Shown piece after piece: positions 19,488 to 28,775 of a stretch of 64,000 nucleotides of DNA. Within the stretch, counting starts at the first letter, position 1, and each line of letters opens with the position of its first letter. This stretch comes from Geodermatophilus amargosae (GTDB lineage: Bacteria > Actinomycetota > Actinomycetes > Mycobacteriales > Geodermatophilaceae), in contig NZ_FPBA01000005.1 in NCBI RefSeq assembly GCF_900116515.1, forward strand, positions 186,001 to 250,000, written 5' to 3'. The notes beneath the pieces were generated by a model that saw only the letters and a program-made list of their open reading frames with translations, had not been told where the DNA came from and searched no databases. A program made the translations under genes and the position numbers.

Positions 19488-20152
19488 CCGCCGTGGGCAT
19501 CCCGGGCGTCGACGTCCCCGACCACCGGGGCCGGACCCGCCTGGACCGGGCGGGTCGGGACCTCACCGGCAACCCGGGCATCGTCGTCCGCGACGTGGAG
19601 CTGCTGGCCGCCGGCTGGCACGTGCTGCGCCGGACGACGTTCGACCAGCGTCGCCGCGACGGCTCCTGGACCACCGAGCAGCGCGAGACCTACGACCGCG
19701 GCAACGGCGCCACGCTGCTGCCCTACGACGTCGCCCGCCGCACGGTGCTACTCACCCGCCAGTTCCGGTTCCCCGCCTACGTCAACGGCTCCCCCGACGG
19801 GATGCTCGTCGAGACCGCCGCCGGGCTGCTCGACGAGCAGGACGCCGAGACGGCGGTCCGGCGGGAGGCCGAGGAGGAGCTCGGCGTCGTCGTCGGCGAG
19901 GTGACCCGTGTGTTCGACGTCTTCACCAGCCCGGGGTCTGTGACCGAGCGGGTCGTCTGCTTCGCCGCCCCCTACACGCCGGCCGACCGGGTGTCGGCGG
20001 GTGGCGGGCTCGCCGAGGAGGGCGAGGACATCGAGGTGCTCGAGCTCGACGTCGACGAGGCACTGGTCATGGTCGACGACGGACGGATCGCCGACGCCAA
20101 GACGATCATCCTGCTGCAGTGGGCGGTGCTGCGCGGGCCGTTGCGCGCCTAG
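19484..20152 (+). CDS. nudK: NUDIX hydrolase, NudK-like (GDP-mannose pyrophosphatase type)
   Basis: 222 residues. The NUDIX box runs from about 114 to 136 (GLLDEQDAETAVRREAEEELG), with REAEEELG complete; the first acidic position is Asp rather than Glu. Sequence on both sides is very like NudK: RETYDRGNGATLLPYD, LLTRQFRFPAYVNG, DVFTSPGSVTERVVCF and EEGEDIEVLELD. NudK splits GDP-mannose or related nucleotide sugars to sugar-phosphate and NMP. GTG 19484 overlaps the stop of the preceding gene. The first 40 residues are an extra N-terminal segment. Its stop TAG shares the CTAG with the convergent RsbW-like gene. Confidence 0.85.
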   Translation: MTAVGIPGVDVPDHRGRTRLDRAGRDLTGNPGIVVRDVELLAAGWHVLRRTTFDQRRRDGSWTTEQRETYDRGNGATLLPYDVARRTVLLTRQFRFPAYVNGSPDGMLVETAAGLLDEQDAETAVRREAEEELGVVVGEVTRVFDVFTSPGSVTERVVCFAAPYTPADRVSAGGGLAEEGEDIEVLELDVDEALVMVDDGRIADAKTIILLQWAVLRGPLRA

Positions 20153-20565
20153 CGCGGCGAGCGGACCCGGACGATCCGCCAGTGGTTGGTCGCGCCCTCC
20201 CGCCAGTAGGCGACCTCCTCGACCGCCCGGCGGGCCAGTGCCAGGCCGCGACCGGACTCGGCCAGGTCGTCCGGCAGGGTGGCCGACTCCAGGTCGACGC
20301 CGGCCTGCGGACCGGAGTCCTCGAACCTGGCCTCCAGTCGCGGTTCGAGGACCCGGACCAGGAGGGTCAGGTCCAGCACCTCCCCTCCGGCGGCGTGCTC
20401 CATGATGTTCCCGGCGACCTCGGTCAGCGCGATCTCGAACCGCATCCGGTCCTCCACCGCGACGTCGGGATGACCCGCCCAGGCGCTCTCCAGCAACTCG
20501 TGCACCAGGTCGAGGCTCTGGGGCACCGCCGGAGTCGTCAGCCGGTAGCCCAGGTCAGCCGCCAT
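20149..20565 (-). CDS. RsbW-like anti-sigma/serine kinase (HATPase_c_2)
   Basis: 138 residues of GHKL ATPase fold. N-box FEIALTEVAGNIMEHA (residues 43-58; N53 for Mg-ATP), G1 box FEDSGP (81-86) and G2 box GRGLAL (105-110) are all present, so it should bind ATP and phosphorylate its antagonist. Partner-switching kinases of this family phosphorylate a STAS protein on serine and bind a target until the STAS protein is dephosphorylated. The STAS gene lies directly upstream and overlaps this one by 11 bp, and the phosphatase is encoded two genes further up. No sigma factor is nearby. Stop codon shared as CTAG with nudK. Confidence 0.88.
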   Translation of the reverse strand: MAADLGYRLTTPAVPQSLDLVHELLESAWAGHPDVAVEDRMRFEIALTEVAGNIMEHAAGGEVLDLTLLVRVLEPRLEARFEDSGPQAGVDLESATLPDDLAESGRGLALARRAVEEVAYWREGATNHWRIVRVRSPR

Positions 20566-20890
20566 CGAGGGCCGCCTCCACGGTGTCGTGGGGACGCAGC
20601 ACCCGGTCGAGGTTGGTGAGCTCCAGGACGGTGCGGACCTGTGGCGTCAGTCGGGCGATCCGCAGGTCGCCACCGGCCTGGCGGGCCGCCTTGAGGCCAC
20701 CGACGATGGCGCCGAGGCCCGACGAGTCCATGAACGTGCACGCCGCGAGGTCGATGACCACCGTCGTCCGCCCCGCCTCGACGGCCTCGCCGACCGATGC
20801 GCGCAGGGCCGGCGCGTTGACCATGGTCAGCCGGCCCTCGATGCGCAGCACCGCCACGTCCGGGCGCTCCCCGGCCTGCACCTCGGTCAC
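20555..20890 (-). CDS. STAS-domain anti-anti-sigma factor
   Basis: 111 residues, a single STAS domain. The motif CTFMDSSGLGAIV (51-63) carries the phosphorylatable serine at 56 or 57. LRIEGRLTMVNAPALRASV and VVIDLAA are the flanking strands. Non-phosphorylated STAS proteins bind an RsbW-like kinase and release its target; the kinase reverses this by phosphorylation. GTG 20890, with GGGAG upstream, overlaps the stop of the glycosyltransferase gene as GTGA. Being translationally coupled to a membrane glycosyltransferase is unusual for this family. Confidence 0.9.
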   Translation of the reverse strand: MTEVQAGERPDVAVLRIEGRLTMVNAPALRASVGEAVEAGRTTVVIDLAACTFMDSSGLGAIVGGLKAARQAGGDLRIARLTPQVRTVLELTNLDRVLRPHDTVEAALDGG

Positions 20891-22884
20891 GTCGTCTCCC
20901 TCTCGGCCCGCGGGCCGCGGTAGTGCACCGCCCGCAGGACGATGCTCAGCATCAGCAGGTCGTATCCGACCCAGGCCAGGTTGACCCAGGTCCCCTCCGG
21001 CGTGGGCGCCACCCCCAGGACCTCCCGCGTCACGCCGATGATGGCAGCGACGACGAGCACTCCCATCGCCATGAGCTGCGGTCGGATGAGCGACCACGGC
21101 GGACGGCCGTCCCCTTGAGCCGTCTTGGGCGTGACCACGAACCCCAGGCTGCGGCCGAACCAGACGTTGCCCGCGGCGGTGGCGCACGCCCGGATCCACA
21201 GCGGGAAGAGGGCCAGGTTGTACTGCTGGCCGCGCCAGGTGCCCAGCCTCCAGCCCACGACCAGCCCCAGGACCTGGTTGACCACCAGGAACGGCAGCAG
21301 CCGGACGAGGAAGTCCTCCCCGAAGGTGTCCACCGGCCGGACCCCGAGGACCAGGTAGGCGACGGGCGCGGCGAGGTAGACCAGGGTCGCGAAGCCGGAG
21401 AGATAGCTCCACATGGTCGCGAGGTACATGAGCCGCTGACCCCAGTGGAGGCCGCGCTGGACCAGCGGGTTCTCCCGCAGCATCACCTGCAGCGTGCCCT
21501 GCGACCAGCGCAGCCGTTGGTGCAGCATCGACCGCAGGTCCTCGGGCGCCAGTCCCCGGGCGAGGACCTGGTGGTGATAGACCGACCGCCAGCCCAGCCG
21601 GTGCAGCCGCATCGCCGTCGCCATGTCCTCGGTGACGGAGATGGTCGCCATCGGCATCAGCGGCTGCGCCTCGTCGGCGAGGTCGACGTCGACGGCGGCG
21701 ACCAGGGCCCTGACCGACTCGAGCGCGGTCAGCGGCGACCACTCCCGGCAATCCAGCTGCTGCAGGTCCCATTGCGCCGTGGGCTCGACGAGGGTGACGC
21801 CGGGCGACGGGCACTCCGGCCGGGGCTCGAGCGACGCGATGACCGCCAGGTCCGCCTGCAGGCCCGCGGTGTCGGCGGCGACGACCTCCCGGCCGGCCTC
21901 GTCGACCTCCCGCTGGAAGCGGTAGGTGACCTCCGAGACCGGCTGCCCGCCGGCCAGTGCGGCCCGAGCCGTACCGACCGCGGCGGAGACCCGGTCGAGG
22001 GCGGCCAGCGCCGGCGCGCTGGATCGCGCCTCCCTGCGGGCGACGGCGAGGATCGCGCCGGCGCGCCGCAGGGCCACCCGGATCGCCTGCTCGACGTCCC
22101 GCACGTAGCCGACGACGCCCAGCTGCATGAGGGCGTCGCGGCGCAGCACGGCGTTGGACCCGCAGAAGTACGCGGCGTCCCAGCCGTCCTTGCCCATCTG
22201 GATGGGGCCGTAGAACAGCGACGCCTGGCTGCCGAGCGGATCGGCCGCGCCGACGTTGGAGAACCACTGCGGGGTCTGGACGAACGCGACGCGCGGGTCG
22301 TCGAAGTAGCCCAGCGTGCGCTCCAGGATGGCGGGGTCGGGCACCTGGTCGGCATCGAGGACCAGCAGGAACTCACCGTCCGTCGCGAGGAGGGCGTTGT
22401 TGAGGTTGCCCGCCTTCGCGTGCCGGGGCCGACCGGACCAGTCGGCGCTGCGGGTCAGGTACCCGAGGCCCGCCGCCTCGGCGGCCGAGCGCATGCCCGC
22501 GCGGTCGCCGTCGTCGAGCACCCAGGTGCGGTGGCGACCGCGGATGGCCTGGGCCGCTCGCGCGGTCCGCATCACCAGGTCGACCGGTTCGTCGTAGGTG
22601 GTGATCAGGACGTCGACCGTCGCCCCGGCCGGCGCCCGCGGCGGCTCGCCCCGGCGGCGCAGCCGCCACACGGTGGCGCCGAAGAGATAGGCGTCGACGA
22701 GGCTGTAGGTCTCGGCGAGCACGAGCGGCACAGCCAGCCACCAGGCCGCCCAGTTGATCGAGTCGAGCCAGCGCCACACCACGTAGTTGGTGCCGCTGAC
22801 CAGGGTGAGGACGACCAGGACGCGGATCCACCGCGCGCGGGCCGCCGAGACCTGGACGGCGGCCGCGGCCGCCGCCGTGCTCAC
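20887..22884 (-). CDS. membrane glycosyltransferase family 2, cellulose-synthase-like, with large insertion
   Basis: 665 residues. Two N-terminal membrane helices (19-38, 46-66) precede a GT-A catalytic domain: TTYDEP (95-100), LDDGD (123-127), LDADQ (176-180), TPQWF (204-208), TED (418-420) and QRLRWSQG (456-463). Four to five further helices follow from about 480. This set is that of processive beta-glycan synthases such as BcsA. Between SNAVLRRD (243-250) and TED there are about 165 residues, far more than in BcsA, forming an extra helical segment rich in Ala, Arg and Glu. There is no PilZ domain. The gene overlaps its upstream phosphatase and downstream STAS genes by GTGA. It probably makes an exopolysaccharide from UDP-sugar; which sugar is unknown. 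Confidence 0.88.
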   Translation of the reverse strand: MSTAAAAAAVQVSAARARWIRVLVVLTLVSGTNYVVWRWLDSINWAAWWLAVPLVLAETYSLVDAYLFGATVWRLRRRGEPPRAPAGATVDVLITTYDEPVDLVMRTARAAQAIRGRHRTWVLDDGDRAGMRSAAEAAGLGYLTRSADWSGRPRHAKAGNLNNALLATDGEFLLVLDADQVPDPAILERTLGYFDDPRVAFVQTPQWFSNVGAADPLGSQASLFYGPIQMGKDGWDAAYFCGSNAVLRRDALMQLGVVGYVRDVEQAIRVALRRAGAILAVARREARSSAPALAALDRVSAAVGTARAALAGGQPVSEVTYRFQREVDEAGREVVAADTAGLQADLAVIASLEPRPECPSPGVTLVEPTAQWDLQQLDCREWSPLTALESVRALVAAVDVDLADEAQPLMPMATISVTEDMATAMRLHRLGWRSVYHHQVLARGLAPEDLRSMLHQRLRWSQGTLQVMLRENPLVQRGLHWGQRLMYLATMWSYLSGFATLVYLAAPVAYLVLGVRPVDTFGEDFLVRLLPFLVVNQVLGLVVGWRLGTWRGQQYNLALFPLWIRACATAAGNVWFGRSLGFVVTPKTAQGDGRPPWSLIRPQLMAMGVLVVAAIIGVTREVLGVAPTPEGTWVNLAWVGYDLLMLSIVLRAVHYRGPRAERETT

Positions 22885-24071
22885 GCCGTCCGCCGGACCG
22901 CGACCACGGTGACGTCGTCAGGCAGCACGGCGAGGGCGCCGGCGAGGGCGCCGAGGTGGGCGACGAGCTCGTCGGCGGTCCCGGCGGTGCGGGCCACGGC
23001 GGCGACCTCCCGGAAGGCGGCCTGCGCGCCGCCGTAGAGCTCGAGGACCCCGTCGCTGAAGATCACGACGCCGTCGCCCGGCTCCAGACGCAGGGTGTGC
23101 TCGGGCCACTCCGCGTCGTACGGCCAGCCCAGCGGCACCCCGCCCCGCCCCGTCCGCTCGACGGAGCCGTCCGCCCGCACCATCAGCGTCAGGCCGTGCC
23201 CGGCGTCGGCCAGGCGCAGGAGCCCGTCGGCCGGGCGCAGCCGGGCGTGGCAGAGGGTGACCAGGGTGTCGGTGCGCCACAGGTCGTCGTGCAGGGCCGC
23301 GGCGGCCGCGGCGATCGCCTCCGCGGGCCGTGCGACCCGGCTACCGGCCCGCATCACGGCACGGACCGTGGCCATCAGGATCGCTGCCTGCAGACCCTTG
23401 CCCATGACGTCACCGACGGTGAGACCCACCTCGCCGTCCGATGCCGTGTACCAGTCGAAGAAGTCGCCGCCCACGGCACCGGACTGCAGGCACAGGCCGG
23501 CGATGTCGTACCCGGGCAGGCGCAGGGTCTCCCGCGGCAGGAGAGCGCGTTGCACGTCCCCCGCCCGGTCCAGCTCCTCGGCCCGGTCGATCTCGCGCTG
23601 CGCCCAGGAGGCGAGCTCGGCGAGCATCCGGCGGTCGGCGTCGGTGAAGTCGCGGGGCCGGTCGTGCACCACGCAGAGCGCGCCCACCCGGTGGCCGCCC
23701 GGTGCCTCGAGCGGGTACCCGGCATAGAAGCGGATCTGGCCGCTGGTGACCGAGGGGAAGTCGCTGAACCGCTCGTCGGCGGTCGCGTCCTCGACGACGA
23801 GGATCCCCTCGTTCCGGATGGTGTGGTCGCAGAAACCGGTCGCGCGCGGGCCGTCCTCCAGCGCCCGGCCGTACTGGGACTTGTGGTGCTGCGTCCTCCC
23901 GTCGATCAGGGTCACGGCAGCCGCCCCGACCCCGAACACCTGCTGCGCCAGCCGCGTGATCCGGTCGAACCGCTCCTCGGGGCCGGCACCGATCAGACCC
24001 AGGTCCTCGACGGCGCGCACCCGCGCGACCTCCTCGACGGCCGCGGGTGACCGCTCGACCTCGGTTCTCAC
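22881..24071 (-). CDS. GAF-SpoIIE serine phosphatase (RsbU-like)
   Basis: 396 residues. A GAF domain covers about 30-165 (QVFGVGAAAVTLIDG, CDHTIRNEGILVVEDA, RFYAGYPL, GALCVVHDRPRDF). The PP2C-like SpoIIE domain follows: GGDFFDW (201-207) and GDVMGKG (220-226) hold metal-binding aspartates, and IFSDGVLE and LPDDVTVV the later ones. Such enzymes dephosphorylate STAS proteins in response to a signal read by the GAF domain. No signal peptide or membrane helix is present. I chose GTG 24071, which has GGGGGA seven bases upstream; GTG 24086 would add five residues. Stop overlaps the glycosyltransferase start. It is the first gene of the four-gene operon. Confidence 0.88.
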   Translation of the reverse strand: MRTEVERSPAAVEEVARVRAVEDLGLIGAGPEERFDRITRLAQQVFGVGAAAVTLIDGRTQHHKSQYGRALEDGPRATGFCDHTIRNEGILVVEDATADERFSDFPSVTSGQIRFYAGYPLEAPGGHRVGALCVVHDRPRDFTDADRRMLAELASWAQREIDRAEELDRAGDVQRALLPRETLRLPGYDIAGLCLQSGAVGGDFFDWYTASDGEVGLTVGDVMGKGLQAAILMATVRAVMRAGSRVARPAEAIAAAAAALHDDLWRTDTLVTLCHARLRPADGLLRLADAGHGLTLMVRADGSVERTGRGGVPLGWPYDAEWPEHTLRLEPGDGVVIFSDGVLELYGGAQAAFREVAAVARTAGTADELVAHLGALAGALAVLPDDVTVVAVRRTA

Positions 24072-24253
24072 GTCTTCGTCCCCCACTCGGTGTGGCGCTC
24101 CTCCGCCGACCGCGTGGTTGCGGACCCGGCCGGCTGTGCGACTCGAATGGGATCGGCACGTCCGGGGACGAGGTTGAGCACCGACCCGGACTCCGGACGG
24201 CGCCCGGTGCACCGCGCTGCGGTGGACGTCACCGACGTCCGTGCTCAGTCCAC

Positions 24254-26236
24254 CTAGCGGACCCCGCGCTCCCGGGCCAGCGCGACGTAGTGCTCGACCA
24301 GCGACGCGTCGTCGACGGCCCCGGGGTTGACCGCCTTCTCCGGCGGAACGCCCTGGAACAGCCGCTTCAGCGGGACCTCCAGCCGCTTGCCGGTCCGGGT
24401 GTGCGGGACGCCGGGCGCGACGAGGACCTCGTCGGGGACGTGCCGCGGGCTGGCGGAGCTGCGGATGGCGGCGCGGATCCGGCCGGTGAGCTCGTCGGTG
24501 AGCTCCGCGCCGGGCGCCATCTGCACGAACAGCGGCATCCAGTAGCCGCCGTCGCGCTGCTCGACGCCGAGGACGACGCAGTCGGCGATCTCCGGGAAGG
24601 ACTCGACGGCGGCGTAGATGTCGGCGGTGCCCATGCGCACGCCGCCGCGGTTGAGGGTCGAGTCCGAGCGGCCGGTGATGACGCAGGTGCCGCGCTCGGT
24701 GACCTCCATCCAGTCGCCGTGCCGCCAAACGCCCGGCCAGGGCTCGAAGTAGGCCTCGCGGTAGCGGGTGCCGTCGGGGTCGTTCCAGAAGTACAGCGGC
24801 ATCGACGGCATCGGCTCGGTGATCACCAGCTCGCCGAGCTCGCCCACCACCGGCTCGCCGTCCTCGTTCCACGCCGCCGCCGCGACGCCGAGCATCGGAC
24901 GCTGCAGCTCGCCGGCGGTCACCGGGAGCAGCAGCGTGCTGCCGATGAAGCCGGTGGCGACGTCGGTGCCGCCGGACGCCGAGCTGAGGAAGACGTCGCC
25001 GCCCACGGCGTCGTAGACCCAGTGGAACGCCGACGCGGGCAGCGGTGAGCCGGTGGACCCGATGACCCGCAGCGCCGACAGGTCGTGCGTCTCCCCCGGC
25101 CGGATGCCCGCCTTCTCGCAGGCGATGAGGTACCCGGCGCTGGTGCCCAGGTAGGTGATCCCCGTGCGCGCGGCGAGGGCGAACTGCGCGTCCACCGAGG
25201 GGTACGCCGGTGCGCCGTCGTGGACCACCACGGTCGCGCCGCGCAGCAGCGCCGAGGTGGCGATGTTCCACATGATCCAGGCGGTGGAGGCGTACCAGTA
25301 GAAGCGGTCGCCGGGGCCGACGTCGCCGTGCAGGCCCAGCTGCTTGTGCTCCTCGAGGGCCACGCCGCCATGGCCGTGCACGATCCCCTTGGGCAGCCCG
25401 GTGGTGCCCGACGAGTAGACGATCCACAGCGGGTGCTCGAACGGCAGCGCCTCGAACACCGGGTCCTGCCGGTCGGCGACGGCCTCGGCCCAGCCCAGTG
25501 CCCCCTGGGGCACCTCGTCGGGGAACAGCCGGGGCACGGAGATCGTCGTCCGCACGGTGGGCAGGGCGGCCCGCAGCTCGCCGACGACCTCCCGCCGGTC
25601 GTGGGCCTTCCCGTTGAACCGGTACCCGTCGACGGCGACCAGCACGGTGGGCTCGATCTGGGCGAAGCGGTCGAGCACCGCGCGGGTGCCGAAGTCCGGC
25701 GCGCAGGAGGACCACACCGCGCCGATCGACGCGGCGCCGAGGAAGGCGACCACCGCCTCCGGGACGTTGGGGAGGTACGCGGCGACGCGGTCCCCGCGCT
25801 GCACGCCAAGCCGGCGCAGGGTCGCCGCGAAGGCGCCCACCTGCGCGCGCAGCTCGGCCCAGGAGACCTCGACCGGTTCGGCGTCCTCGGCGACGGCGAT
25901 CAGTGCCGGGTGCTCGTCCGTGGCGTGCCGCAGGGCCTGCTCGGCGTAGTTGACCGTCGCGTCCGGGAACCACTCGGCGCCGGGCATCCCGCGCCGGGTG
26001 AGGACGCGGTCGTCGGGGACGCGCTCGGGGAGGACACCCGACCACACGGCGACGTCGGCCCAGAACTGGTCGAGGTGGTCGACCGACCAGCGCCAGATCG
26101 CGTCGTAGTCGGTCGGGTCCAGGTCGAGCCCGCGTCGGGCGGCCACCTCGCGGGCGAAGGCGGCGAGCCGGGTCGCCTCCCGGCCCTCCTGGGTGGGCTG
26201 CCAGAGCACCGGCGCGGGAGAGGTGTCAGCGGTCAC
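24254..26236 (-). CDS. acetoacetyl-CoA synthetase
   Basis: 660 residues, the normal length of acetoacetate-CoA ligase. The N-terminal ACAS-type cap contains WRWSVDHLDQFWADVAVW and GAEWFPDATVNYAEQ. The adenylation core has the P-loop YSSGTTGLPKGIVHGHGG and the motif GRSDSTLNRGGVRMG, and the C-terminal hinge-lysine region reads VPHTRTGKRLEVPLKRL. It activates acetoacetate with ATP and CoA in the cytoplasm, feeding ketone bodies or PHB degradation products into acetyl-CoA metabolism. GTG 26236 gives the family's N-terminus; the ribosome site is weak. A perfect TetR-type palindrome lies 53 bp upstream. A 180-bp gap with nothing recognisable separates it from the phosphatase gene. Confidence 0.92.
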   Translation of the reverse strand: MTADTSPAPVLWQPTQEGREATRLAAFAREVAARRGLDLDPTDYDAIWRWSVDHLDQFWADVAVWSGVLPERVPDDRVLTRRGMPGAEWFPDATVNYAEQALRHATDEHPALIAVAEDAEPVEVSWAELRAQVGAFAATLRRLGVQRGDRVAAYLPNVPEAVVAFLGAASIGAVWSSCAPDFGTRAVLDRFAQIEPTVLVAVDGYRFNGKAHDRREVVGELRAALPTVRTTISVPRLFPDEVPQGALGWAEAVADRQDPVFEALPFEHPLWIVYSSGTTGLPKGIVHGHGGVALEEHKQLGLHGDVGPGDRFYWYASTAWIMWNIATSALLRGATVVVHDGAPAYPSVDAQFALAARTGITYLGTSAGYLIACEKAGIRPGETHDLSALRVIGSTGSPLPASAFHWVYDAVGGDVFLSSASGGTDVATGFIGSTLLLPVTAGELQRPMLGVAAAAWNEDGEPVVGELGELVITEPMPSMPLYFWNDPDGTRYREAYFEPWPGVWRHGDWMEVTERGTCVITGRSDSTLNRGGVRMGTADIYAAVESFPEIADCVVLGVEQRDGGYWMPLFVQMAPGAELTDELTGRIRAAIRSSASPRHVPDEVLVAPGVPHTRTGKRLEVPLKRLFQGVPPEKAVNPGAVDDASLVEHYVALARERGVR

Positions 26237-26412: not shown

Positions 26413-27363
26413 ATGACCGAGCGTCCTGTGCCGCCTGGCCGTCGCGCCCGCCTGGCCCGGTGGAGGGGACGGACCCTCGTCCTCGCCGGGATCGGTGCCG
26501 GGGTCTGGCTGGCCGGCGCGTCCACCGCCTCGGCCGACGAGCCGCCGCCCGGCGGCCTGCTCGGGACGGTCACCGCACCGGTGGGGCAGGTCGTGGAAGC
26601 GGTCGTCCCGCCCGTCGTCCAGCCCGTCGTCCAGCCCGTCGTCTCGCCCGTGGCCCAGACCGTCGCGCCGTTGGTGACGCCGGTGGCCGAGGCGGTCGCG
26701 CCGGTGACGGCACCGCTGCGCGACGTCGTCGCACCCGTCGGCCGCGTCGTCGCCCCGGTGACGGACGCCGTCGCTCCTGTCGTCACCCCCGTGACGGAGG
26801 TGCTGTCCCCCGTCACGGACGCCCTGACGCCGGTCACCGAGGCCCTGACCCCGGTCACGGACACGCTGACCCCCGTCACCGACGTCCTGGACCCGGTCAC
26901 CGGTGAGCTCCCCCCGGTGACCGACGCCCTCCCGCCGGTCGCCGGCGTGCTGACGCCTGCTCTCGACGGCGTCGACGTCGCCGCGGTCGCCACCCCCGAC
27001 GCCACGGCGCCGTACGCCCCGGTGGCGGTCACCGCCGACCCCGCGGACCTGCGGGACGGCCAGGCGCCGGTCCGCTCCACCGAGGGCACCGGCACCGCCC
27101 GGGACGACGCCGGCTCGCCCGTCGCCGTCCCGTCCCCCGTGGTCCCGGCCGCGCCGCTCGCGCCGGCCGTCCCGGTGGTGCCGGCCGTCCCGGCGTCCGC
27201 GGGCACCGCGGCCGGCGGTGCCGGCTCCGACCGCGACCAGCTCCCCTACGACCTCGGCACGACCGTTCCCGTCGCGCCGCAGGCGGCGGCGCAGGCCGCC
27301 TCCGCCGAGGCCCGGGACGCCGCCGCCGGCGACCCGGTCGACCCCGCCAGCTCCCCCGACTGA
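26413..27363 (+). CDS. secreted Pro-Val-Thr-rich repeat protein
   Basis: 316 residues. A basic start (RRARLARWRGR) and hydrophobic core (LVLAGIGAGVWLAGAS) end in ASA|DE near residue 42, a Sec signal peptide. From about 50 to 180 the sequence is built of short units such as PVTDALTP, PVTEALTP and PVTDTLTP with a seven-residue period; the rest is Ala/Pro/Val-rich. No cysteine, sorting signal or catalytic motif is seen, so it may be a wall-spanning or surface spacer protein. ATG 26413 follows GGGGGAGG. The LAxTG-anchored chaplin-like gene is 92 bp downstream, and both may act at the cell surface. Function unknown. Confidence 0.8.
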   Translation: MTERPVPPGRRARLARWRGRTLVLAGIGAGVWLAGASTASADEPPPGGLLGTVTAPVGQVVEAVVPPVVQPVVQPVVSPVAQTVAPLVTPVAEAVAPVTAPLRDVVAPVGRVVAPVTDAVAPVVTPVTEVLSPVTDALTPVTEALTPVTDTLTPVTDVLDPVTGELPPVTDALPPVAGVLTPALDGVDVAAVATPDATAPYAPVAVTADPADLRDGQAPVRSTEGTGTARDDAGSPVAVPSPVVPAAPLAPAVPVVPAVPASAGTAAGGAGSDRDQLPYDLGTTVPVAPQAAAQAASAEARDAAAGDPVDPASSPD

Positions 27364-27455
27364 GGAACGCGCTCCCGGCTCCCCGAGCCGGTCGCAGCGC
27401 ACGCCCCGCCGTCCCGTCCGGGACCGCGGTCCTCACCCCAGTCAGGAGAACTCCC

Positions 27456-28775
27456 ATGCACACCTGGGCCAACCGCGCCCTGCGCGTGGCACTGATGACC
27501 GGCGGCCTCGTGGCCCTCGGCACCGGTGTCGCCGCCGCCTCCGACGACCTCGACGTGACGGTGCCGGTCACCGTCGCCGACAACGCCCTCGGTGTCCTCG
27601 ACACCGGCACCCCGGTCGGCGGGGTGGAGCTGCCCGCTGTCTCCCAGGACCTCGCCCTCGACCTGGGCCCGGTCACCGTCTCCGTGCCCGTCACGATCGG
27701 CGGCAACGACGCCTCCGTCGCCGGCGGCACCGCCACCCAGGAGCCGGCCGCGCCCGCGCCCGGCAGCACCGCGCCGGCCGACGTCGTGGTGCCGGTGACC
27801 GTCGTCGGCAACGCGGTCGGCGTGCTCGGCGACGCCGAGGCCGGCGGCACCGCTCCCGCCACCCCTGACGGCGCGGTGACCGCGCCCGTCACGGTCTGCG
27901 GCAACGGCGCCGGCGTGCTCGGCGACGCCTCCGGGGACTGCACCCAGGCCGGTGCTCCGGCGCCCGCCCCGACCGACGCGGGCCCGCTCGGCGGCGTGCT
28001 CGACGTCGACGTCCCCGTGACCGTCTGCGGGAACGGCGCCGGCCTGCTCGGCGACGCCGCCGGGGACTGCACCCCGGCGACCTCCGGCGGCGGTACGGGC
28101 TCGGACGGAGACGGCGGCCTGCTCGACGTCGACGTCCCCGTGACCGTCTGCGGCAACGGCCTGGGCCTGCTCGGCGACGCTGCCGGGGACTGCACCCCGG
28201 CCACCTCCGGCAGCGGCTCCGGCGGCTCCGGCTCCGGGAACGGCTCCGACGGCGGCATCGACGTCGACGTGCCGGTGACGGTGTGCGGGGTGGGCCTCGG
28301 CCTGCTCGGTGACGCCGTCGGGGACTGCGCCCCGGCGACCGACCCCACCGACCCGACCGACCCCACGGAGCCGACCGAACCGACGGACCCCGAGGGCCCG
28401 CAGGACCCGGGCACGCCGGAGGACGGCGCGGGGAACGGCTCGGGCACCCCGGGCCACGGCCCGCGGAACGGCACCGGTCACGGCCTCGGTCACGGCCTCG
28501 GTCACGGCCTCGGTCACGGCATCGTCCGGCCGGCGTCCGCGACCGGGTCCATGTCGGCGGGGTCCATGTCGGCGGGGTCCATGTCGGCGGGGTCCATGTC
28601 GGCGGGGTCCTGGTCGGGCGGCCCGTGGGCGGCGTCCGACCGGTCCGGGGACACCGGGCAGCTGGCCTACACCGGCACGGAGACGGCGACCGCCCTCGGG
28701 GCGGCCCTGCTGGCCCTCGCGCTGGGGAGCGGCCTGACCCTCACCGGCCGGCGCCGCCGGGTGGACACGGTCTGA
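27456..28775 (+). CDS. chaplin-like repeat surface protein with LAxTG sorting signal
   Basis: 439 residues. A signal peptide (to about residue 28, AAA|SDD) is followed by seven related units. The first three lack cysteine (TVPVTVADNALGVL, SVPVTIGGNDASV, VVPVTVVGNAVGVLG). The last four read VPVTVCGNGxGLLGDAxGDC with cysteine pairs at 148/162, 191/205, 232/246 and 277/291. This resembles chaplin domains (VPVNVCGN...C), which form amyloid surface layers on aerial hyphae of Streptomyces. After Asp/Pro-Thr, His-Gly-Leu and Gly-Ser-Met-Ser-Ala repeats come LAYTG (403-407), a hydrophobic helix and RRRR, a class E sortase signal. It is therefore predicted to be covalently attached to the wall. ATG 27456 follows CAGGAG. 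Confidence 0.85.
   Translation: MHTWANRALRVALMTGGLVALGTGVAAASDDLDVTVPVTVADNALGVLDTGTPVGGVELPAVSQDLALDLGPVTVSVPVTIGGNDASVAGGTATQEPAAPAPGSTAPADVVVPVTVVGNAVGVLGDAEAGGTAPATPDGAVTAPVTVCGNGAGVLGDASGDCTQAGAPAPAPTDAGPLGGVLDVDVPVTVCGNGAGLLGDAAGDCTPATSGGGTGSDGDGGLLDVDVPVTVCGNGLGLLGDAAGDCTPATSGSGSGGSGSGNGSDGGIDVDVPVTVCGVGLGLLGDAVGDCAPATDPTDPTDPTEPTEPTDPEGPQDPGTPEDGAGNGSGTPGHGPRNGTGHGLGHGLGHGLGHGIVRPASATGSMSAGSMSAGSMSAGSMSAGSWSGGPWAASDRSGDTGQLAYTGTETATALGAALLALALGSGLTLTGRRRRVDTV
28476..28523 (+). repeat. 12-bp tandem repeat inside surface protein gene
   Basis: GGTCACGGCCTC occurs three times exactly and once partly, coding for Gly-His-Gly-Leu. Identical third positions mean the copies are young, so copy number probably varies between strains. 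Confidence 0.85.
28545..28619 (+). repeat. 15-bp tandem repeat inside surface protein gene
   Basis: GGGTCCATGTCGGCG occurs four times exactly and a fifth time with changes, coding for Gly-Ser-Met-Ser-Ala. The exact repeats suggest recent slippage. Confidence 0.88.

Follow-up and report, generated by a model that had tools for sequence, protein, structure and literature searches.

Described partner switches and beta-glucan synthases

In classic partner switching, RsbW holds a sigma factor and the dephosphorylated antagonist frees it, and to our knowledge the described partner switches act on either a sigma factor or a cyclase or, like that of SypA, on a target that has not been identified. One example is Pseudomonas SiaABCD, in which a phosphatase and a kinase determine whether a small activator of a biofilm enzyme is phosphorylated: SiaC binds the helical stalk of the cyclase SiaD and thereby activates it, an effect that is abolished when SiaC is phosphorylated (PMC8457831). 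Another example is the SypA/SypE pair of Vibrio fischeri, described as a system in which the unphosphorylated STAS protein is active and controls polysaccharide-dependent biofilm (PMC4517449, PMC8256260). In the BgrUVW-BgrR-BgsA system of Sinorhizobium meliloti, partner switching controls the synthesis of mixed-linkage beta-glucan via c-di-GMP, as reported (PMC7647112, citing Baena 2019; for BgsA, PMC5567048). Additionally, Anabaena all4160 is mentioned as combining a glycosyltransferase with a STAS domain (PMC8256260).

The locus analysed here, from Geodermatophilus amargosae, shares with RsbU-RsbV-RsbW and SpoIIE-SpoIIAA-SpoIIAB the same three protein families, with catalytic residues intact, but differs from them in that there is no sigma factor among its four genes and none that recurs nearby. 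SiaABCD acts on a diguanylate cyclase, whereas the output of the present locus would be a polymer synthase, with no cyclase among the four genes. The S. meliloti system likewise acts through a cyclase and c-di-GMP, whereas the present locus has neither cyclase nor PilZ domain and its cellulose-synthase-like glycosyltransferase (GT2) carries an insert. The locus also differs from SypA/SypE, with its single two-function kinase/phosphatase, two-component input and 18-gene locus (PMC4517449, PMC8256260), and from all4160, which its description sets apart as a single fused protein (PMC8256260). Our main reading, to which we assign a probability of roughly 0.5, is that the four genes work as a dedicated partner-switching module with the GT2 itself as its direct output through the STAS protein; the broader reading, in which the switch acts directly on the GT2 by way of either STAS or the kinase, we consider quite likely. 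Searches of open-licence PMC text brought up no paper that combines these elements, and no such module is named in the titles and beginnings of abstracts that were listed.

The four-gene locus

The window, i.e., the whole stretch of 64,000 nucleotides that was analysed (contig NZ_FPBA01000005.1, positions 186,001 to 250,000), contains four minus-strand genes with overlaps of 11, 4 and 4 bases between neighbours, as the sequence-only reading had noted and as the open frames and their translations bear out. Its assignment of the products to a GAF-SpoIIE phosphatase, a GT2, a STAS protein and an RsbW-like kinase agrees with the Pfam matches, as does its remark that neither a sigma factor nor a cyclase is among the four, and the catalytic residues that it had called intact in all four proteins are present in the window's row of the alignments. 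The PP2C-type phosphatase (396 aa; 22881..24071, minus strand) shows a GAF domain at ~23598-23981 (Pfam, 7.1e-17) and a SpoIIE domain at ~22890-23441 (4.2e-34) with the metal-binding Asp203/221/340/385/386, and its start is uncertain, lying at 24071 or, according to the gene caller, at 24086. The BcsA-like GT2 (665 aa; 20887..22884, minus strand) matches Cellulose_synt (6.7e-20) and GT2 families of Pfam, and carries D124-D125, D177, D179, E419-D420, Q456/R459/W460 and F582/V584/T585/K587. The STAS protein, of the anti-sigma-antagonist type (111 aa; 20555..20890, minus strand; Pfam STAS, 3.8e-23), reaches 77.8 bits against TIGR00377, above the cut-off of 53.45. Lastly, the RsbW-like GHKL protein kinase (138 aa; 20149..20565, minus strand) matches HATPase_c_2 at 1.5e-11 (44.9 bits, cut-off 27.4) and has E49, N53, D83 and G105-R106-G107 in place. 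A consensus scan of 19900-24500 found no promoter or terminator. Elsewhere in the window, at 26413-28775 on the plus strand, lie two adjacent repeat-rich open frames whose repeats resemble PVTDALTPVTEALT and PVTVCGNGAGLLGDA, the second of them with an anchor-like C-terminal tail.

Conservation of the gene set

The gene order was searched for in related genomes and is kept across the class, so that it is not limited to one strain; an order peculiar to one strain is ruled out by the same set in relatives and beyond. A full-length GT2 of the insert-bearing kind (see below) occurs in 4 of 40 relatives, namely in 3 of 24 other genomes of the genus and in one from another family of the order, and all four also carry the phosphatase, STAS and kinase genes there. 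Scanning of a genome collection yielded 348 stretches encoding relatives, possibly including general GT2s. The best 80 of these 348, picked by GT2 similarity, were combined with five long loci into a set of 85, or 83 when L039 and L042, which overlap L046 and L073, are left out; judged by coordinates, the 83 still seem to include near-copies (L074/L075, L107/L109 and the Cellulosimicrobium-like loci). STAS and kinase matches lie beside the GT2 in 85/85 loci (83/83 without the overlapping pair), and phosphatase matches occur in 82/85 (80/83), those of L064 and L089 being fragments; L054, which starts inside the GT2, L111 and L123 have no phosphatase match. In terms of called genes, the 83 loci comprise 83 GT2, 83 STAS, 82 kinase and 77 phosphatase genes, and they span 25 genus names of Actinomycetes (31 labels, the remainder including MAGs and the window). 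The arrangement varies at some loci: in L041 all three switch genes run divergently from the GT2, and in L070, L074 and L075 the kinase and phosphatase genes converge on GT2-STAS. One-frame fusions of GT2, STAS, kinase or phosphatase are absent among the matches of the 85 loci. The coordinates of L079, titled Sphaerisporangium, resemble those of the Cellulosimicrobium loci.

In a tree of 40 GT2s, the Geodermatophilaceae label changes at least twice on well-supported branches, with Pseudonocardia acidicola placed beside G. ruber (support 86/84), and these placements suggest that the four-gene unit probably moved between lineages. The GT2 of L098, a Kitasatospora arboriphila record, groups with Williamsia (support 100/100) and not with streptomycetes, which may reflect a contaminated or mislabelled record or a recent move of the unit.

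A GT2 subfamily with a helical insert

The best PDB matches of the GT2, in both sequence and fold searches, are BcsA chains, and the two share the GT2 core and the D, D, TED, QxxRW and FxVTxK motifs, which are present in 33/33 GT2 rows. Within FxVTxK, the gating-loop motif (residues 582-587; 21124..21141, minus strand), F, V, T and K are invariant in all 33. Unlike BcsA, the GT2 has no PilZ domain detectable by Pfam scan, scores only 330.7 bits against TIGR03030 CelA, under its cut-off of 699, and bears an insert of ~158 residues in its catalytic domain (residues 257-414; 21643..22116, minus strand), delimited from alignments and AlphaFold2 models; alignments of other BcsA-like GT2s skip from residue ~258 to ~412. 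The insert is predicted to form a three-helix bundle (helices 249-285, 290-311 and 316-351, the first starting within the GT2 core) with additional short helices. It is followed by the TED motif (residues 418-420; 21625..21633, minus strand) and a predicted finger helix (420-429). Mean pLDDT is 80 for the full-length GT2 and 83 for the insert alone, whose helical prediction is of good confidence, with 99/167 modelled residues at 90 or more; in the full-length model, prediction is poor (block pLDDT 40-67) for residues ~350-415, the link between bundle and finger helix.

Searches with the insert gave scattered weak Pfam matches, none convincing (best E 0.0012, to TraB_PrgY_gumN, a family matched by 17/56 insert members at E <= 0.1), a best E of 0.087 against PDB sequences, and no PDB fold at E <= 0.001. 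One insertion of plant GT2 synthases also sits before TED. In general, plant GT2 synthases likewise have the central part of their catalytic region interrupted by insertions (PMC6821405). What is new here is a GT2 subfamily that lacks PilZ and has a predicted helical insert shortly before the finger helix and TED.

The insert goes with the switch

Since the 80 loci had been picked by GT2 similarity, an even sample of the class was used too. Here the insert-bearing GT2 occurs in 22 of 394 genomes, the window's genome included, with scores of 262-396 bits over the full model, while the other listed matches reach at most 62 bits, in the model's last quarter. STAS and kinase genes are adjacent to it in 21/21 assessable loci (window included), the 22nd, L134, being left out because it ends just after the GT2. 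Phosphatase matches are found at 21/22 of these loci, two being partial where the locus ends, and at L147 there is none. Conversely, at the 52 GT2-like loci that lack the insert or are partial, flanks of ~0.8-1.5 kb contain no STAS or kinase match; this set derives from 53 loci (25 from relatives, 8 from the class and 20 from the phylum, several of them partial), of which the decayed L150 was dropped. In a sample of the phylum (396 genomes), a full insert-bearing GT2 is present in two, both of the class and one of them the window's. As for L150 (G378:C53), it lies in a 1.6 Mb genome and holds a decayed module consisting of stop-interrupted GT2 pieces and a phosphatase fragment, whereas the GT2 of a congeneric genome (G239, L147) is uninterrupted and accompanied by STAS and kinase.

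That the four are unrelated genes brought together by chance would be in keeping with the patchiness of the module (3/24 other genomes of the genus, 22/394 of the class), but the set is kept in 83/83 loci, a recurrence far beyond chance, and the GT2 tree suggests that it moves between lineages. Together with the even class sample, the 83 loci refute a chance neighbourhood, whose probability we regard as practically nil. The sequence-only reading had proposed that the GT2 or its regulator may be the output, bound directly by the STAS or RsbW-type protein. The first part, with the GT2 as output, gains support from the insert, which was found solely in GT2s accompanied by the module; the second, direct binding by STAS or kinase, we infer.

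Conservation and inputs of the switch proteins

All family marks of partner switching are present, i.e., the SpoIIE metal Asp residues, the STAS DSSG, and the N-box and GRG of GHKL kinases. The presumed phosphorylation site of STAS, D55-S56-S57-G58 (20717..20728, minus strand), is invariant in 34/34 rows, and we take the first Ser of DSSG to be the phospho-acceptor, as in SpoIIAA/RsbV. In the kinase, E49, N53, H57 and GRG105-107 are invariant in 34/34 rows; the Asp of the G1 box is replaced in 8/34 (L051, L053, L062, L076, L100, L103, L113 and L116), and these proteins may be binding proteins and not active kinases. Mean column identity is 65% for GT2, 60% for STAS, 40% for phosphatase and 37% for kinase, and the higher values of GT2 and STAS are as expected if STAS also contacts the GT2. 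The window's STAS protein is 50-69% identical to the module STAS of 33 other loci as against 36% for the best other STAS of its own genome, so that it looks dedicated. Similarly, the kinase has no second phmmer match in its genome at E <= 0.001, despite 42 HATPase_c_2 matches there.

The phosphatase input domain, in 30 cases, is a GAF in 25, a receiver in four (L041, L076, L083 and L116) and neither in one; thus, judging by domain content, inputs are swapped while the GT2-STAS-kinase core persists. Three of the four receiver cases (L041, L076 and L116) have a neighbour gene from one shared cluster, whose member in L041 is a PAS-histidine kinase. In six Nocardioides loci (L068, L077, L096, L102, L104 and L114), a gene that by its sequence encodes a response regulator is found on the other strand immediately upstream of the phosphatase, perhaps providing another input. 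Cellulomonas denverensis (L078) presents a different variation: four of five metal Asp residues of the GT2-adjacent phosphatase (L078:8100-9326) are replaced (H, E, H, E), and a second phosphatase is encoded downstream of the kinase.

STAS or kinase as the partner of the GT2

If the GT2 is the output through STAS, the kinase would phosphorylate STAS on S56 and thereby hold it inactive, until stimulation of the GAF domain (or of the receiver in some genera) lets the phosphatase restore free STAS. The docking site of free STAS would be the helical insert, close to the finger helix and its catalytic base (TED), and docking would shift the synthase to its active state. BcsA is activated by its c-di-GMP-bound PilZ domain, the place of which STAS would take. 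STAS is preferred as the activator on the precedents of SiaC acting on SiaD and of SypA, and for its stronger conservation. The arrangement in L070, L074 and L075, where GT2 and STAS stay together apart from kinase and phosphatase, also speaks for this reading; the divergent switch genes of L041, the low-confidence stretch before the finger helix, the eight kinases with a replaced G1-box Asp and the five loci with a sigma-like gene nearby speak against it.

The kinase could instead hold the GT2: the RsbW-like protein would bind the insert and block the synthase, and dephosphorylated STAS would pull the kinase off, in keeping with classic RsbW logic. Distance correlations over 74 loci, with the GT2 core partialled out, are 0.49 for insert and phosphatase, 0.41 for insert and kinase and 0.25 for insert and STAS (STAS and core, 0.40); all eight comparisons beat 500/500 permutations and hence do not tell STAS and kinase apart as the partner, but the values lean to kinase and phosphatase, away from STAS, which makes the kinase a serious rival. 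However, conservation is lowest for the kinase (37%), and in L070, L074 and L075 it is on the other strand, apart from GT2-STAS; we hold its acting as the blocking partner to be rather unlikely.

Should the GT2 be the direct output through STAS, the target of the switch would be encoded beside it, as a synthase subfamily with its own insert. We rate it slightly better than even that there is a class-wide family of processive beta-glucan synthases with a receptor domain for a phospho-switch protein inside the catalytic domain, near the catalytic base, in which serine phosphorylation, not c-di-GMP, gates synthesis. If so, a cellulose-synthase-like enzyme would be gated free of c-di-GMP in Mycolicibacterium, Gordonia, Nocardioides, Arthrobacter, Cellulomonas and others. 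An insert-bearing GT2 encoded next to the switch makes the binding partner of STAS directly testable.

Sigma factors and c-di-GMP

A further alternative is that the switch targets a sigma factor or diguanylate cyclase encoded elsewhere, with the GT2 merely a co-expressed target, as in BgrUVW-BgrR of Sinorhizobium; there, the partner switch governs mixed-linkage beta-glucan via c-di-GMP (PMC7647112). The window's genome has 24 Sigma70_r2 and 29 GGDEF matches, the latter making an indirect c-di-GMP route conceivable. Nevertheless, the nearest sigma factor on the contig is ~73 kb off, and a model built from 18 sigma region 2 stretches of the same genome, which recovers 6/6 held-out ones, finds a sigma-like gene within ~9 kb in only 5/85 loci (L055, L082, L094, L103 and L122), at scattered positions. 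A recurrent sigma-factor neighbour is thus rejected, the surrounding ~9 kb of 80/85 loci being free of sigma-like genes. Additionally, the GT2 lacks PilZ, a domain with a single match in the window's genome, on another contig, and its insert is seen only together with the module; GGDEF is absent among the 25 of 193 Pfam families listed for 128 flanking genes of 33 loci. Collectively, we consider a target elsewhere improbable and retain the GT2 as the probable direct output. In Agromyces mediolanus (L055:7512-8054, minus strand), a divergent sigma-like gene (29 bits against the sigma region 2 model) abuts the phosphatase, the sole such case in the 85 loci.

A GH26 hydrolase and the product of the GT2

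The commonest other neighbour is a GH26 hydrolase, whose cluster is found in 36/83 loci, in 29 of these 36 at the position it most often takes, upstream of the phosphatase; the members in L090 and L105 are longer and sited elsewhere, and their membership is putative. In line with this, GH26 has 14 Pfam matches on the 128 flanking genes of 33 loci, and the others among the 25 of 193 families listed have at most four. The clustering of this hydrolase with the module in some loci, as read from gene content, is also new here. Among solved structures, it comes closest to chains of Endoglucanase H (5e-43), which we take to be the lichenase CtLic26A. This hints that the product of the GT2 could be a linear beta-glucan, perhaps a mixed-linkage (1,3;1,4) one. 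The guess is weakened by the distribution of GH26: there is no match in the window's genome, and GH26 is present in all four other relatives with the module, in one of them (G027) far from the GT2, and also in 13/36 relatives that lack it. In four genomes (G013, G017, G039 and G040), GH26 lies within a few kb of insert-less BcsA-like GT2s, and hence the pairing of GT2 and GH26 exists independently of the switch.
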